A DNA stretch of 64,000 nucleotides from Candidatus Poribacteria bacterium (GTDB taxonomy: Bacteria > Poribacteria > WGA-4E > WGA-3G), in contig JAJDWA010000012.1 in the NCBI GenBank assembly GCA_022825825.1, forward strand, positions 1 to 64,000, in the 5' to 3' direction. The notes under the pieces are model-generated. The model did no database searches. It had not been told where the DNA came from and was given only the letters and a program-made list of their open reading frames with translations. Below, in pieces: positions 45,622 to 62,768 of this stretch (position 1 is its first letter; every line of letters starts with the position of its first letter). The position numbers were made by a program, and so were the translations under genes.

Positions 45622-46866
45622 ATGTCAAATCTTTTTGAGACCCTACAAGAACGGGGCTTCATTCAGCAGTGTACGAATGCAGAGCAGCTTTCCTGCTTAC
45701 TCTCTGAAAATCAAATAACATATTACGTTGGTTTTGATCCAACAGCAGACAGCCTCCATGCTGGTAGTCTTGTGCCGATTATGGCGATGGCACATTTGCA
45801 ACGTGGTGGACACAAACCGATCGCAATCATCGGCGGCGGAACTACGATGATCGGCGATCCGACTGATAAAACTGAGATGCGTTCAATGCTCTCTGCTGAA
45901 CAGATTGAAAAAAATGGAGCAAGCATTCTACAACAACTACAGCGTTACCTTGATTTAGATGATGATACTGCAGGATTTTTTTTGAATAATGCTGAGTGGC
46001 TGCTTTCCCTAAATTATATTGAATTTCTACGCGATATCGGTAAACATTTTCGTGTCAATGAGATGATACGTGCTGAAGGGTATCGGCAGCGGCTTGAACG
46101 CGAGATGGGACTTTCATTCCTTGAATTTAATTACCAATTGCTGCAAGCGTACGATTATCTGTGTCTTTTCCAAAAATACGATTGCGTTCTCCAACTCGGT
46201 GGCGATGACCAGTGGGGTAATATCCTTGCAGGAGTCGATCTGGTGCGTAGGATTGAGGGGAAACGTGTCCACGGTCTGACCTTTCCATTACTTACGACAG
46301 CCGGTGGTGCAAAAATGGGAAAAACAGCCGGTGGTGCTGTCTGGCTCGATTCACATCGAACCTCCCCATACCAATTCTACCAGTATTGGATTAACATTGA
46401 TGACCGCGATGTTGAACGGTTTTTAGCATATTTCACCTTTTTACCGATGGATGAGGTGAAGCGACTTGGCAGCTTGGAACATGATGAAATCCGGGAAGCA
46501 AAAGCCGTGCTTGCATACCAAGCGACGAAACTGGCACACGGAAAAGTTGAAGCAGATAAAGCACAGGAAACATCGCGCGCTGCATTTGGCGGCGGCGGAC
46601 TTGATCTTGATGCAATGCCGACTACTACAATCTCTACAGAACAACTTGATTCAGGTATTCCAATAATGGATTTGTTTCATGAAGTTGGCTTAACCAGTTC
46701 AAAAAGTGAAGCGCGCCGCCTAATTCAACAGGGAGGTGCCTATATCAATGAAAAGCAGTATAAGGCTATAGATGTTATCATTGATGCTGATCTGTTAGAA
46801 GAAAATGCGTTGATGCTGCGTGCAGGCAAAAAACGTTATCACCGCGTTGTGGTTGAAGAGGCGTAG
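45622..46866 (+). CDS. tyrS: Tyrosyl-tRNA synthetase
   Basis: 414 residues, the usual TyrS length. Class-I markers: the HIGH equivalent H46-A-G-S-L in DPTADSLHAGSL, GGGTTMIGDPT, tyrosine pocket QLGGDDQWGNI and the KMSKS equivalent K231-M-G-K-T. The C-terminal about 70 residues form an S4 RNA-binding domain (SKSEARRLIQQGGAYINEKQ). It charges tRNA-Tyr in the cytoplasm. A strong promoter and ribosome-binding site precede it. The sequence is intact. Confidence 0.96.
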   Translation: MSNLFETLQERGFIQQCTNAEQLSCLLSENQITYYVGFDPTADSLHAGSLVPIMAMAHLQRGGHKPIAIIGGGTTMIGDPTDKTEMRSMLSAEQIEKNGASILQQLQRYLDLDDDTAGFFLNNAEWLLSLNYIEFLRDIGKHFRVNEMIRAEGYRQRLEREMGLSFLEFNYQLLQAYDYLCLFQKYDCVLQLGGDDQWGNILAGVDLVRRIEGKRVHGLTFPLLTTAGGAKMGKTAGGAVWLDSHRTSPYQFYQYWINIDDRDVERFLAYFTFLPMDEVKRLGSLEHDEIREAKAVLAYQATKLAHGKVEADKAQETSRAAFGGGGLDLDAMPTTTISTEQLDSGIPIMDLFHEVGLTSSKSEARRLIQQGGAYINEKQYKAIDVIIDADLLEENALMLRAGKKRYHRVVVEEA

Positions 46867-46956: not shown

Positions 46957-46986
46957 TTGACTTTACCTTATAAAATGTGTTATCAT
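46957..46986 (+). promoter_or_regulatory. Promoter for the aroF-leuA leader
   Basis: TTGACT (46957-46962), an 18-base spacer and TATCAT (46981-46986). A transcript from about 46993 would carry about 390 bases before aroF, containing the leader peptide and the attenuator hairpin. Confidence 0.6.
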
Positions 46987-47091
46987 ATTGAAAAGTAGTT
47001 TCAATATTTTTAAACGTTTTGTTTGGAATAACGTTTTATAAGGCAAGAAAACGAGAAGGCTTACAACCAAAGAAATTTAGGATATTTTGTG

Positions 47092-47241
47092 ATGCAAAAG
47101 TTTGAACACACGACCACCTCTACAGTACAGACGAGTGGTGCACAGTCTACTCTCATATTTTTACGGGACTATTATTTTACCCTTTGGGCGCTCTTTACGC
47201 TCGGGTTGTTCCCGTTTTTGTACTGCGGCGGTAGGTGGTGA
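47092..47241 (+). CDS. Putative attenuator leader peptide (aromatic- and Leu-rich)
   Basis: A 49-codon frame from ATG 47092 to TGA 47239-47241, with AGGA 9 bases upstream. The second half is loaded with regulated residues: F23, Y27, Y28, F29, W32, F35, F40, F42, Y44 and W49, plus Leu at 21, 24, 31, 34, 37, 39 and 43. The core reads DYYFTLWALFTLG, later LFPFLYCGGRW. The gene stands immediately before a hairpin terminator and the aroF and leuA genes, which make aromatic amino acids and leucine. That is the layout of a ribosome-mediated attenuator. A small hydrophobic membrane peptide is the alternative reading. Confidence 0.7.
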   Translation: MQKFEHTTTSTVQTSGAQSTLIFLRDYYFTLWALFTLGLFPFLYCGGRW

Positions 47242-47293
47242 TAGTTTGTAAGCACTCATGAAAAAGTTTTAATCGATCTCATACATCACTACC
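47113..47293 (+). promoter_or_regulatory. Mutually exclusive leader pairings before aroF
   Basis: Two alternative helices can be read. In one, ACCACCT and CAGTAC (47113-47128) pair with GTACTG and AGGTGGT (47220-47239). In the other, GGTGGTGAT (47234-47242) pairs with ATCACTACC (47285-47293), nine pairs with one G-U. The second overlaps the first three bases of the terminator's left arm, so it could act as antiterminator. Pairings were found by eye, without energy calculation. Confidence 0.5.
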
Positions 47294-47330
47294 CAGCGTC
47301 GATAACAATTCGATGGTGGGTTATTTTTTT
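47291..47330 (+). terminator. Attenuator terminator upstream of aroF
   Basis: ACCCAGCGTCGA (47291-47302) and TCGATGGTGGGT (47310-47321) form a 12-position stem with one mismatch and one G-U wobble around a 7-base loop, followed by TATTTTTTT. It lies between the leader peptide and aroF on the coding strand. Confidence 0.75.
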
Positions 47331-47385
47331 AGTAATCATCTACATTGACTTGAAACAGAGTTATTGTCGGAGGGAATTGATAACC

Positions 47386-48402
47386 ATGGTAATCGTTACC
47401 AAAACGGATGCAACACCCGATCAGATTGACGCAATTGTCAAACGGATTGAGAGTGTAGGGTTGAAAGCACAGATTTCAACTGGCGAACAACGCACCGTCA
47501 TCGGTGTAATAGGAGATAAAACATTGCTTGGCGATATTCCGATGGAGTCAATGTCGGGCGTTGAAAGGACAATGCCGATCACTGCCCCATATAAATTAGC
47601 AAGCCGCCAATTTCGGGATGAACCGACTGTTATCTCTACGAACGGGACGAAAATTGGAGGACGGAAGTTAGCAGTTATGGCGGGCCCTTGTGCAGTTGAG
47701 AGCACTGAACAGATTGTAACTATTGCAAAACTGGTAAAAAAGGCGGGCGCCGGTTTTATTAGAGGTGGCGCGTTTAAACCTCGCACAGGCCCCTATAGTT
47801 TCCAAGGCTTCGGAGCAGATGCATTGCAAATGCTGGTCGCAGCCAAAGAAGAAACTGGCTTGGGTATCGTTACAGAGGTCATGACTCCCCATGAAGTTGA
47901 ACTTGTCGGAGAATATACGGACATATTTCAACTCGGCACGCGGAATATGACAAACTTCTATCTACTGCGTGAAGTTGGCCGCGCACGTAAACCTGTTATT
48001 CTGAAGCGCGGGATGTCCTCAACAATTGAAGAATGGCTGCTTGCTGCGGAATACATCCTTTCCGAAGGGAATCCTGATGTTATTCTTTGCGAGCGAGGTA
48101 TCCGCACCTTTGAAACCCACACGCGTAACACACTGGACCTCAACGCAGTTCCCGTTGTTCACGAATTAAGCCATCTCCCCATCGTCGTTGACCCGAGCCA
48201 CGGTACTGGTATCCGCAGTTTAGTGTGCGATATGACGAAAGCATCCGTTGCATCTGGTGCAGACGGGCTGTTATTGGAAGTACATCATGACCCAGATAAC
48301 TCTATGACAGGTGATGGTGCGCAATCTCTGTTTCCCGATCAATTTGAGACACTCATGCAAGAACTAAAACCGATTGCAATCGCTGTTGGGCGTGAAATAT
48401 AA
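47386..48402 (+). CDS. aroF: 3-deoxy-7-phosphoheptulonate synthase (DAHP synthase), ferredoxin-like-domain type
   Basis: About 338 residues from ATG 47386, chosen because the product then begins MVIVTKTDATPDQIDAIVKR, the normal start of the N-terminal ferredoxin-like regulatory domain; a TTG at 47350 would add twelve residues. GGAGG lies 12 bases upstream. Catalytic-domain markers: AVMAGPCAVESTEQI, GGAFKPRTGPYSFQGFG, QLGTRNMTNFYLLREVG and PIVVDPSHGTGIR. It condenses PEP and erythrose 4-phosphate, the first step to Phe, Tyr and Trp. The N-terminal domain is the type that binds Tyr/Phe as feedback inhibitor in relatives. It probably shares a transcript with leuA, 81 bases on. Confidence 0.94.
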   Translation: MVIVTKTDATPDQIDAIVKRIESVGLKAQISTGEQRTVIGVIGDKTLLGDIPMESMSGVERTMPITAPYKLASRQFRDEPTVISTNGTKIGGRKLAVMAGPCAVESTEQIVTIAKLVKKAGAGFIRGGAFKPRTGPYSFQGFGADALQMLVAAKEETGLGIVTEVMTPHEVELVGEYTDIFQLGTRNMTNFYLLREVGRARKPVILKRGMSSTIEEWLLAAEYILSEGNPDVILCERGIRTFETHTRNTLDLNAVPVVHELSHLPIVVDPSHGTGIRSLVCDMTKASVASGADGLLLEVHHDPDNSMTGDGAQSLFPDQFETLMQELKPIAIAVGREI

Positions 48403-48483
48403 GTGACAAAGTGAATTCTAACTTAAGTCCATTGTGAAGTGATTTAACTTACAATGACGGGTACCTTTTTGGAGGAAATAACC

Positions 48484-50037
48484 GTGGACGATTTTGAAAC
48501 TAACCAAGAAAAGGTTTATATTTTTGATACAACACTCCGAGATGCGGAGCAAACTCCCGGAGCCGCTCTCGGCATTGAAGAAAAATTGGAGATTGCCAAG
48601 CACCTTGCGAAATTAAATGTTGATGTCATTGAAGCTGGTTTTCCAATTTCGTCACCGGGTGATTTTGATGCCGTTCAACGCATCGCTAACGAGGTGAAGG
48701 GACCCGAAATTTGCGCACTTTCACGCGTTGTCGAAAAGGATATTACGGCAGCATGGAAAGCGATTCAGGATGCTCCCCGTGCCCGTATCCATACATTTGT
48801 TGGTACATCAACTATCCACATGGAACGCATCACTCGCACAACACCAGAGAGAACTCTTGAAATGGCGGTAGATGCGGTTACTTATGCAAAAAGTTTGTGT
48901 GCAGATCATCCGGATGCTACCGTTGAGTTTTCACCGATGGACGCAGGCAGAACAGAATTGGCATATCTGTACGAGGTAGTTGAAGCCACTATTGCCGCAG
49001 GAGCAACCGTAGTCAATATTCCTGAAACTGTGGGATGGACAGTGCCTGCTGAATTTGGTGGTCTCATTGCAGGCATCAAGGAAAATGTCTCAAATATTAA
49101 TGATGCCATTATTAGTGTTCACTGCCATAACGATTTAGGGTTGGCTGTGGCAAATAGTCTTGTAGCTATTGAACAGGGCGCACGGCAGGTAGAGTGCACT
49201 ATCAATGGGCTTGGTGAACGTGCGGGAAACACTTCACTTGAAGAGGTGGTCATGGCAATCCGAACCCGACGTGATTACTTTAAAGCGTATTACACCGATA
49301 TTAATGCCAAAGAGATTGTTCCTATCAGTAGACGTGTAAGTCGCACGATGGGTATTCCTGTGCAACCGAATAAGGCGATTGTCGGTGAAAACGCTTTTGC
49401 CCACAGTTCAGGAATCCATCAAGATGGGATTATTAAGTCGCGTGTGACTTTTGAAATCATTGACCCGAAAGAGATCGGTTGGCAAACGAGCCAGATAATT
49501 CTCAGTCCACGTTCTGGACGGAACGCCTTGAAACATCGTCTCAGCGAACTCGGATATGAACTGGATTCGGAGCAATTAGAGAAGGTTTATGAAAGATTCC
49601 TCCGCGTTGCAGATAAGAAAAAAGCTGTTCATGATGCCGATCTTGAGGCAATCATGAGCGATGAGATTCGTACCGTCCCTGCCACCTTTGAACTTGACTA
49701 CATTCAAGTTGTTAGTGGGACAAAGATTTCACCGACAACCACCGTCGGTATCCGTACGGAGGATGGAATAGTTGAAGATGCTTCCACCGGCGATGGCCCT
49801 GTGGACGCAGCCTTTAAGGCAATTAATCAAATTGTCAAAATCAAACTGAACTTAATTGATTATCAAATACGTTCGGTAACGGAAGGCGAAGACGCCATCG
49901 GTGAGGTTACGTTGAAGGTGCAGGACAATGGGCACGTCATCACAGGACACGGTGCGAGTACGGATATTATTGAGGCAAGTGCCAAGGCGTATATCCATGC
50001 TGTAAATAAATTGATTCAACTCCGTTCAGAGGGATAG
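48484..50037 (+). CDS. leuA: 2-isopropylmalate synthase
   Basis: About 517 residues. GTG 48484 is preferred because GGAGGA ends 7 bases upstream; the in-frame ATG at 48454 has no ribosome-binding site. The DRE-TIM barrel has YIFDTTLRDAEQTPGAALG, VIEAGFPISSPGDF, SVHCHNDLGLAVANSL with the metal-binding histidines, and CTINGLGERAGNTSLEEV. The C-terminal about 130 residues form the LeuA allosteric domain, which binds leucine in the family. It commits 2-ketoisovalerate to leucine synthesis. Pairing with aroF under one leader rich in Leu and aromatic codons suggests joint control. A bidirectional terminator follows. Confidence 0.94.
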   Translation: MDDFETNQEKVYIFDTTLRDAEQTPGAALGIEEKLEIAKHLAKLNVDVIEAGFPISSPGDFDAVQRIANEVKGPEICALSRVVEKDITAAWKAIQDAPRARIHTFVGTSTIHMERITRTTPERTLEMAVDAVTYAKSLCADHPDATVEFSPMDAGRTELAYLYEVVEATIAAGATVVNIPETVGWTVPAEFGGLIAGIKENVSNINDAIISVHCHNDLGLAVANSLVAIEQGARQVECTINGLGERAGNTSLEEVVMAIRTRRDYFKAYYTDINAKEIVPISRRVSRTMGIPVQPNKAIVGENAFAHSSGIHQDGIIKSRVTFEIIDPKEIGWQTSQIILSPRSGRNALKHRLSELGYELDSEQLEKVYERFLRVADKKKAVHDADLEAIMSDEIRTVPATFELDYIQVVSGTKISPTTTVGIRTEDGIVEDASTGDGPVDAAFKAINQIVKIKLNLIDYQIRSVTEGEDAIGEVTLKVQDNGHVITGHGASTDIIEASAKAYIHAVNKLIQLRSEG

Positions 50038-61034: not shown

Positions 61035-62768
61035 ATGTTGGATAAAGATAATACCTTCATCAATAACATAAGAAACAAAGCAACAAAATATGTTTTACTA
61101 TTAGTTTTTGCTGCCCAAATTTTCGGAAGCGGTTGCGATGATATGAATAATCCCGTAAAAGTTATGGAGCAAATGGAAGACAGAACAGTCGCAGAAATAA
61201 AAACTGAGGCACCAAAACAGGAAACAAGATTATCCAACAACACAATTGACGAAAACAACAAACCGGACGCAGTAATTGGAAAGTTCATAAACGAAAGCGG
61301 AGACAATTTACAATATTTCATAAAAAATGAAGATGACAAAAAAATTGTATACGTAAATAAAGACAACGAACTTGTAGCAAAAATTTCTTTTGATTTTGAA
61401 AAAACGCCAAGATATGATATAGAAGTCGGCGAAAAGAATTTAGGGACAGACGACACAAAATTTAATACTTATGAAATTCTAATAAACAATTTACGAGAGG
61501 CAGGGGACATTATGCTCTCAAACAACACAATTGACGAAAACGCACGCCCAAACACAAAAGTTGGAGAGTTTATAACAGAAGAAGGACAGAAACTTAAATA
61601 TTCAATTCCAGGAAAAAGTCCTGATTTTTACATAAATGACAAAAACGAACTGCTAACCAAAAGAGAACTTGACTTTGAAACACAACCAAAATATAGTTTA
61701 CAAATCGCAGAGAAAAATGTTGAAACAGGAGAAACAGTAGAAAAAAATATTGAAATTTTGGTTAATGATTTACGAGAGGCAGGTGACATTATGCTCTCCA
61801 ACAACACAATTGACGAAAACGCACACCCAAATACAAAAGTTGGAGCGTTTATAACAGAAGAAGGACAGAAACTTAAATATTCAATTCCAGGAAAAAGTCC
61901 TGATTTTTACATAAACGATAAAAATGAACTGCTAACCAAAAGAGAATTTGACTTTGAAACACAACCAAAATATAGTTTACAAATCGCAGAGAAAAATGTT
62001 GAAACAGGAGAAACAGTAGAAAAAAATATTGAAATTTTGGTTAATGATTTACGAGAACTTGAAGATATAAAAGTTTTAGCACCTGATAACACAGAAAACT
62101 TGTCAATTGAAGAAAACAGAGAAAAGGGAACAATTGTCGGAACTTTTCAAGATGGAGAAGGACAGCAAATTGTAGGCAGTGGCAGCAATTATTTTGAAGT
62201 TGATGGAAAAAATTTAGTTATAAAACAATCTCTAAATTTTGAAGAGCTCATAAGACAATCACGCCTAACGCCAAACCAAGAAATGGAAATAAGCGTCCAA
62301 GAACCAAAAGTTGAGGGACAAAAAGTTTTCACAATAAAAATAGTAGATGTAAATGAAGCGCCTTATGATATTCAGCTTTCAAATAATTCTTTTAGTTCAG
62401 ACGATTCAATCGGAACAGAATTTGCGGAAATCCTATCTTACGATGAAGACATAGAGGACACGCACACATACAGGATTACAAAAGGGCACGAATTTATAGG
62501 AGTTAACGGAGGAAAATTAGTAAAATTACAAAACCTCCCAAGCTCAGAAATAGATATAGAAATTGAAGCAACAGATAAAGGTGGGCTAAAATGGACAAAA
62601 CAATTTACAATCACACAAACCCAACCTGAACCGATTATTCCACCAGAAGAACCTCAACAACCGCCAGAAGATCCTGTACCTCCCCAAGACGATGACGATC
62701 CTGACCCTCCCGAAGATCCACCAAGCGACCCAGATCCAAATCTTCCACCCGGCGATTGGTTCAATTGA
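61035..62768 (+). CDS. Lipoprotein with cadherin-like tandem repeats and Pro/Asp-rich tail
   Basis: About 577 residues from ATG 61035 (a TTG at 61002 has no ribosome-binding site). The lead ends in a lipobox-like GSGC (VLLLVFAAQIFGSGCDD). Three repeats of about 93 residues follow, each starting LSNNTIDEN, with an FxxExG motif and a late DFE(T/K)xPxY, typical of cadherin-like domains; copies two and three are almost identical. Two further divergent cadherin-like units follow (LSIEENREKGTIVGTFQDGE; QLSNNSFSSDDSIGTEFAEI). The tail is a Pro/Asp/Glu-rich spacer ending PNLPPGDWFN. The gene is visibly richer in A and T, with many AAA and ATA codons, than its neighbours, which suggests recent acquisition. 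Probably a surface adhesin. Confidence 0.8.
   Translation: MLDKDNTFINNIRNKATKYVLLLVFAAQIFGSGCDDMNNPVKVMEQMEDRTVAEIKTEAPKQETRLSNNTIDENNKPDAVIGKFINESGDNLQYFIKNEDDKKIVYVNKDNELVAKISFDFEKTPRYDIEVGEKNLGTDDTKFNTYEILINNLREAGDIMLSNNTIDENARPNTKVGEFITEEGQKLKYSIPGKSPDFYINDKNELLTKRELDFETQPKYSLQIAEKNVETGETVEKNIEILVNDLREAGDIMLSNNTIDENAHPNTKVGAFITEEGQKLKYSIPGKSPDFYINDKNELLTKREFDFETQPKYSLQIAEKNVETGETVEKNIEILVNDLRELEDIKVLAPDNTENLSIEENREKGTIVGTFQDGEGQQIVGSGSNYFEVDGKNLVIKQSLNFEELIRQSRLTPNQEMEISVQEPKVEGQKVFTIKIVDVNEAPYDIQLSNNSFSSDDSIGTEFAEILSYDEDIEDTHTYRITKGHEFIGVNGGKLVKLQNLPSSEIDIEIEATDKGGLKWTKQFTITQTQPEPIIPPEEPQQPPEDPVPPQDDDDPDPPEDPPSDPDPNLPPGDWFN
61506..62063 (+). repeat. Tandem 279-bp repeat inside the cadherin-like gene
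   Basis: The blocks 61506-61784 and 61785-62063 are nearly identical at DNA level, with a handful of substitutions, and in frame (93 codons). This indicates a recent internal duplication; the block before them is a diverged third copy. Confidence 0.9.

Follow-up and report, generated by a model that had tools for sequence, protein, structure and literature searches.

An attenuator-like leader upstream of aroF and leuA

We describe a leader region in a Candidatus Poribacteria genome that probably places the aroF and leuA genes under a ribosome-mediated transcription attenuator, which would sense charged tRNA for the aromatic amino acids and for leucine. The region lies within a 64,000-nucleotide stretch of DNA (hereafter the window), taken from an assembly of 5.1 Mb in 75 contigs. 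Leader-peptide attenuation had been proposed in an initial annotation of this DNA, and four lines of evidence support it: conservation, synonymous codon changes, covariation, and geometry. The attenuator is predicted about as firmly as sequence alone allows: the leader, its promoter, the helices, the terminator, their conservation, and codon-level selection can all be seen in the DNA.

Genes in the window, as named by NCBIfam, run in the order tyrS, leader, aroF, and leuA. The tyrS gene, upstream of the leader, occupies positions 45622-46866. The gene for an aroF-type 3-deoxy-7-phosphoheptulonate synthase, the first enzyme of aromatic synthesis, is located at 47386..48402 on the forward strand (NF006421 and TIGR01361, above cut-off) and probably starts at the ATG at 47386. 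It is followed on the same strand by leuA, encoding 2-isopropylmalate synthase, at 48484..50037 (TIGR00973 and NF002086, above cut-off). The probable start of leuA is the GTG at 48484, which is preceded by GGAGG, with an ATG at 48454 as the alternative. These families agree with the aromatic and leucine synthesis functions assigned to both genes in the initial annotation.

In 47 of the 48 named loci, aroF and leuA are less than 0.5 kb apart. The exception is L070, with a distance of ~2.3 kb. Its gap holds frames that resemble a methyltransferase and a second DAHP synthase, the latter of a different type; this synthase-like frame was also seen between aroF and leuA in L111 (reverse strand), a locus of the same genome, which belongs to f4. 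Every leader-bearing locus has leuA downstream of aroF, and no leader locus without leuA was found. Tandem repeats were also observed. A 279-base unit is present in two tandem copies, 96% alike, at 61489-62056 of the window, and a tandem heptamer, AGTTATA, was found in the aroF-leuA gap of L042 (2086-2118) and just past leuA in L078 (5608-5633).

A sigma-70 type promoter, TTGACT-18-TATCAT (10 of 12 consensus matches), is found at 46957..46986 on the forward strand, its -10 element ending 105 bases upstream of the leader ATG. Relatives L035, L036, L046, L048, L063, and L068 carry TTGACT/A-18-TATAAT (11 or 12 of 12) at 97-108 bases before the ATG. A promoter with at least 10 of 12 matches within 150 bases before the ATG was present in only 20 of the 43 loci of family f1, compared with 6% of shuffles. 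The leader ORF itself (MQKFEHTTTSTVQTSGAQSTLIFLRDYYFTLWALFTLGLFPFLYCGGRW; 49 codons, 47092..47241, forward strand) extends from the ATG at 47092 to the TGA stop at 47239-47241 and is preceded by an AGGA Shine-Dalgarno site at 47079..47082. The promoter and the 49-codon frame with its own AGGA before aroF are therefore all present as first described.

Residues 21-49 of the leader, on recounting, hold the ten aromatic codons (five Phe, three Tyr, and two Trp) and seven Leu codons originally ascribed to its second half. Nine of the aromatic codons and the seven Leu codons form a control-codon run at 47152..47223 (forward strand), whose Leu/Tyr/Phe enrichment is kept in relatives, while the tenth aromatic codon, Trp at 47236, falls within segment 2 of the predicted RNA structure described below. 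The window leader ends in ...LFTLGLFPFLYCGGRW. Among 754 ORFs of 25-100 codons on both strands of the window, the leader frame, counted from an upstream GTG at 47089, ranks second in F/Y/W/L density per 20 codons, and its F/Y/W count of 8 is the top value among the best eight of the 754, tied with two others. Codon composition alone is suggestive only, and chance is excluded because of conservation.

Conservation of the leader across Poribacteria

The leader frame and the terminator, on whose conservation in related genomes the original proposal hinged, both precede aroF in 53 of the 56 aroF-leuA loci with enough upstream DNA, which belong, where the leader is present, to families f1 to f4. 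The 53 comprise the window, 48 of the 50 loci L031-L080, L113, and L008, L013, and L016. Loci L069, L079, and L028, whose contigs end within or before the leader, were left out, and fetched loci of already represented genomes and unfetched aroF places are outside these counts. In the window, the 48 named loci, and L113, a hairpin of at least 11 pairs followed by a T-rich stretch lies 34-209 bases before aroF (50/50), and a leader frame precedes the hairpin in the same 50. Leader and terminator are also both present in L008, L013, and L016, which belong to the window's genus.

The leader is absent from three linked aroF-leuA loci in two distant families, f6 (L118, L119) and f10 (L283), in which a different frame ends shortly upstream of aroF. 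Since the leader is missing there, the pairing of aroF with leuA probably predates the attenuator. No matching leader was found at aroF loci without leuA (L120-L123, L129, L130), and no matchable leader precedes aroF in 30 non-Poribacteria loci (L081-L110). A 21-codon frame with six Phe/Tyr codons and a terminator was observed ~170 bases before aroF in the Spirochaetes-titled L084, and is possibly an unrelated aromatic leader.

All 43 f1 loci have an ATG-started leader ORF of 38-72 codons in the same place. Each has a Shine-Dalgarno match of at least three bases, extending to four bases in 29 of the 43, with the weakest, GAG, in L041, L054, and L058. The first half of the leader differs between genera, and f1 leaders elsewhere end in ...GLYLYLYLYLYSNDRW or ...VFYLYLYLYLYGNDRW. 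Most f1 leaders stop within segment 2, those of L037, L048, L055, L063, L064, and L075 stop a few codons later, and the leaders of f2-f4 stop further downstream, beyond segment 2. The weakest leader is the frame of L077 (genus f3g5), with few Leu and few aromatic codons; both L076 and L077 of this genus have few Leu codons despite the leuA that follows.

A 39-base repeat (CGGTGCAGCTTGCAAACCGAAAACTTGCTATTCAAAAGA) is found in tandem between the terminator and aroF in L078 (2866-2981 and ~2652-2690) and L043 (~2699-2727), and a similar unit can be seen by eye, in frame, inside the leader ORF of the sister genus. The extra residues in the leaders of that genus were not traced to a dispersed repeat: the one pattern tried was not dispersed, and this origin was rejected.

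Codon-level selection on the leader

Control-region statistics were compiled from 33 distinct regions out of the 43 f1 loci. The alignment for codon bias called for by the initial annotation shows, in the last eight control codons, 97 Tyr (12.9x background), 97 Leu (4.6x), and 26 Phe among 264, while the first 20 leader codons of the same 33 regions are near background for Tyr and Leu. Codon -6 is Leu in 30 of the 33 regions, by way of CTG, TTG, TTA, and CTA. Leader Leu codons are mixed, with TTG at 31% vs 16% in five window genes. The last leader codons, which form segment 2, vary in the residues they encode (CGGRW, GNDRW, SYARW, SDVRW, YDGGW).

Fifteen distinct Leu-Tyr leaders were compared over their last six codons. 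Pairwise differences amount to 0.192, 0.000, and 0.265 at codon positions 1, 2, and 3, respectively, and 157 of the 235 pairwise codon differences (67%) are synonymous vs 20.7% expected from random point changes, in pairs that are not independent because the sequences are related. The fixed second position, together with the synonymous excess, argues that the leader is a translated message whose amino acids matter, and selection appears to act on it as a series of codons specifying the regulated amino acids.

Antiterminator and terminator structures

Segment 1 (47113..47128, forward strand) is predicted to pair with segment 2 (47220..47241, forward strand, including the stop codon) over 47220-47239 when no ribosome holds it open. 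In the window, this helix has an energy of -27.0 kcal/mol and a z of -2.7. Segment 2 is also predicted to pair, over 47226-47241, with segment 3 (47286..47301, forward strand), its antiterminator partner, which overlaps the 5' arm of the terminator. The first of the two competing helices drawn by eye in the initial annotation (47113-47128 with 47220-47239) thus exists, while the second is longer than drawn (47226-47241 with 47286-47301) and therefore occupies most of the terminator 5' arm. The terminator hairpin, formed by segments 3 and 4 (47291..47321, forward strand; -17.0 kcal/mol), begins 49 bases past the leader stop, as annotated, and is followed by the U-run TATTTTTTT at 47322..47330 on the same strand. 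Hairpin and U-run were detected in a folding scan of the sequence; a simple consensus scan does not report the terminator at 47291.

Covariation was assessed in an alignment of 41 of the 43 f1 sequences, from which L033 and L044 were dropped. The antiterminator has 94.4% of cells paired, compared with 29-69% in slid controls, and none of 500 shuffles matches the observed pairing or covariation score. Covarying stems, another check suggested at the outset, are exemplified by one antiterminator pair that is A-U in 18 and G-C in 16 of the 41 sequences, a double change; with 2 antiterminator pairs showing such changes, the count does not rise above that of the shuffles (1.7). For the terminator, 99.0% of cells are paired over the 41 sequences. 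In families f2-f4, the helices consist of different but still complementary sequences (e.g., GATGGTGGGC with GCCCATCATC), and the single-locus z-scores of the pairing between segments 2 and 3 have a mean of -2.7 over 50 loci.

When folds end before segment 4, segment 2 sits on 7-12 of the 12 bases of the terminator 5' arm in all 50 loci. With segment 4 included, equilibrium folding prefers the terminator, by a median of 8.2 kcal/mol over the fold without segment 4 and by 5.0 kcal/mol in the window. Because the terminator wins at equilibrium, antitermination must be kinetic, a matter of timing, in keeping with the general view of attenuator switches.

Helix 1:2 reaches p<0.05 against codon-shuffled controls in 8 of 41 leaders, seven of which are of the window's type. 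As a generally conserved feature, it was rejected, being good in the window's genus and not elsewhere, and it is kept as a genus-level feature. An earlier search for this helix over long stretches was too loose, with a mean z of -0.5 among the matches listed.

Proposed mechanism of attenuation

Transcription would start ~100 bases upstream of the leader ATG. Without translation, segments 1 and 2 would pair, the terminator would form from segments 3 and 4, and the operon would be off. A ribosome stalling at a Tyr, Phe, Trp, or Leu codon at 47152-47223 would sit in the loop between segments 1 and 2, keeping the two apart, and most or all of segment 2 would be free to pair with segment 3 while segment 4 is still to be transcribed. 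The terminator could then not form in time, and aroF and leuA would be transcribed. The aromatic signal would be Tyr above all, then Phe, with Trp. When both kinds of charged tRNA are ample, the ribosome would reach the stop at 47239 and cover segment 2, and the terminator would form; a finishing ribosome would lead to termination because the stop codon sits within segment 2. As the leaders of f2-f4 end beyond segment 2, we infer that this third state, or the reset of the switch, must differ in those families.

The initial annotation had regarded the switching of the helices as not simple, as the control codons span a long stretch. This difficulty falls away, in that any stall between segments 1 and 2 would act alike. 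The run of control codons lies in a single block ahead of segment 2, so that running short of either amino acid would be enough to open the operon, giving OR logic. From these features, we infer that the frame is translated in the cell, that ribosomes stall on it, that transcription terminates prematurely, and that leucine is a true second signal.

A parallel leader before hisI, trpE, and trpG

Operons of hisI, trpE, and trpG, with a leader of alternating His and Trp codons and a terminator, were found at L157 (~640-1261 and on to trpE) and at L223, on contig C62 of the window's own genome, where a frame with SNHWHWW and a terminator precede hisI (phosphoribosyl-AMP cyclohydrolase), trpE, and trpG. 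A Trp-rich leader frame is present in 44 of the 51 trpE loci examined. The run contains at least two His codons in 38 of the 40 leaders with hisI before trpE vs none of the four without hisI, a contrast whose Fisher value of 0.0001 is overstated because the loci are related. The four hisI-less leaders lack or nearly lack His codons. One of them, L174, was scored on the wrong frame; in its homologous frame, the run contains a single Trp and a single His codon. L163 and L279 have hisI and one His only. The cleanest contrast is offered by the hisI-less leaders of f9 (FWRWWW) and f10 (NWCWWW).

Seven of the 51 loci, which have no frame with at least two Trp codons, were left out of the 40 and four: L169 and L273 (truncated at contig ends), L281 (whose frame has several His but a single Trp), and L172, L267, L278, and L284 (no frame found). 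His codons in the trp leaders are CAT in 114 of 122 cases, and so provide little synonymous evidence, unlike the Leu-Tyr run. The pairing of segments 2 and 3 in the trp leaders occupies the same position throughout, and between families its sequence changes in step with that of the partner; single-locus z-scores are modest (median -0.9, 8 of 41 below -2).

Given the aroF-leuA and hisI-trpE-trpG leaders, we lean towards a general two-input leader design in Poribacteria, in which codons of both amino acids alternate before mixed-pathway operons and the leader codons evolve with gene content. Each such leader may serve as a small OR gate, signalling when either of the two products runs short.

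Other amino acid operons in these genomes

A separate leucine attenuator was sought in the aroF-leuA gap of eight loci, with no convincing leader with a terminator found. One weak hairpin (L196) and no matching leader were found at 20 leuC loci, and neither a hairpin nor a matching leader at 20 pheA loci. Hairpins precede ilvB in most of 19 loci. Three of the four ilvB loci put to Rfam, the window's genome included, have a T-box (RF00230) before ilvB, at L136 3243-3527 (reverse strand), L139 963-1223, and L145 1131-1383; the fourth, L133, is below the T-box cut-off. No terminator or leader was found at six leuA loci without linked aroF in f4g6/g7 (L227-L232). A mini-ORF with a strong ribosome site (e.g., AAGGAGGTGATG, MKVGLTATDEPDLRD) was observed directly before leuA in non-f1 families (L227-L233, L072, L073), and a similar-looking one in L241 and L243. 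The mini-ORF could be a translational leader of leuA.

Leucine as the probable second input and alternative readings

Leucine is likely the second signal, as judged from the enrichment of Leu codons, their synonymous conservation, the gene content of the operon, and the parallel hisI-trpE-trpG case. Of the joint aromatic and leucine input first proposed, the leucine part is well supported where Leu codons are kept synonymously (f1) with leuA downstream, with the parallel operon on its side, and it fits poorly with the Leu-poor leaders of f3g5. The latter would suit an attenuator that senses aromatics only, with the Leu codons as hydrophobic filler or as slippage products of a Leu-Tyr hexamer repeat. 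Leu is a common residue; leaders differ in how many Leu-Tyr units they carry, as expected of slippage; and L076 and L077 have few Leu codons though leuA is present. However, synonymous substitutions occur at positions 1 and 3 of the Leu codons while position 2 is fixed, so that, since copying, these codons have been kept to Leu or a similar residue, and the 4.6-fold enrichment is confined to the control run. The window's own genus, moreover, has Leu without LY repeats, and the His/Trp leader of hisI-trpE-trpG follows the same composite rule. We therefore regard an aromatic-only attenuator as unlikely.

The hydrophobic second half of the leader, and its conservation as a protein-coding frame, could also be read as a small functional membrane peptide that lies before a terminator by chance. 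The residues at its C-terminus, though, change along with the RNA pairing that they encode, its length ranges over 38-72 codons with a first half that differs between genera, it has no NCBIfam or Pfam match, and such a peptide has no need of overlapping antiterminator and terminator, all of which makes this reading very improbable.

It is scarcely credible that the leader is a chance open frame between tyrS and aroF and the hairpin an ordinary terminator of tyrS. One other of the 754 short window ORFs does reach its composition. However, of the 42 named f1 loci, only 14 have tyrS in the upstream DNA retrieved, and 22 with >2.5 kb upstream lack it, yet the leader is present in all; nor would chance account for the synonymous pattern and covariation. 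Equally hard to credit is a T-box or another leader RNA that senses tRNA or a ligand. T-boxes do occur before ilvB in these genomes (3/4 loci) and before aroF in the two Firmicutes loci tested (L083, L087), but the aroF leaders of the window and 12 relatives match no Rfam family at gathering score, where a T-box would be expected to score as it does at ilvB; the sole match at E up to 10 is a snoRNA family of eukaryotes on the opposite strand, which stays under its cut-off.

Relation to known attenuators

In the multivalent attenuators known so far, the amino acids combined come from connected pathways: in enterobacteria, leaders of the thr operon contain Thr and Ile codons, and those of the ilv operons Leu, Val, and Ile codons. 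The attenuator of the thr operon is described as having Thr/Ile specificity (Lynn et al., 1987, cited in PMC7041290). The preferred reading of the aroF-leuA leader, a two-input attenuator, resembles these thr and ilv systems in bringing several amino acids into one leader with a terminator and an antiterminator. Unlike them, the Poribacteria leaders pair separate pathways (Leu and aromatic; His and Trp) that share an operon, and they belong to another phylum.

The trp, phe, and his attenuators of Proteobacteria have the same architecture of leader, antiterminator, and terminator. As single-amino-acid systems, they differ from the two-input aroF-leuA leader. This architecture is also described for trp attenuators of Actinobacteria in the part of that report consulted (PMC1262725), and no Tyr-rich leader before a DAHP synthase gene appears in the portions covered of the literature on trp, phe, and his attenuators. 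Branched-chain synthesis in S. aureus involves a leucine-rich attenuator peptide (PMC5794164), similar to the aroF-leuA leader in its Leu content, but the part of that source consulted mentions no aromatic input. The T-boxes before aroF in Firmicutes (L083, L087) precede the same gene and read tRNA charging, as is proposed for the aroF-leuA leader; T-boxes bind tRNA directly and have no leader peptide.

A literature search, in which subscription journals were thinly covered, returned no Poribacteria attenuator and no Leu/aromatic or His/Trp leader among the matches listed. The mechanism is old, while the pairing of unrelated pathways and its occurrence in this phylum appear to be new. Leader-peptide attenuation would thereby be extended to an uncultured phylum, with T-boxes (ilvB) predicted alongside leader peptides (aroF-leuA, hisI-trp) in the same genomes. 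The words of the leaders seem to track the gene content of their operons, so that the gain and loss of regulatory codons upon operon rearrangement becomes testable. In bacteria that have never been grown, co-regulation of unrelated pathways may thus be predicted from sequence alone.
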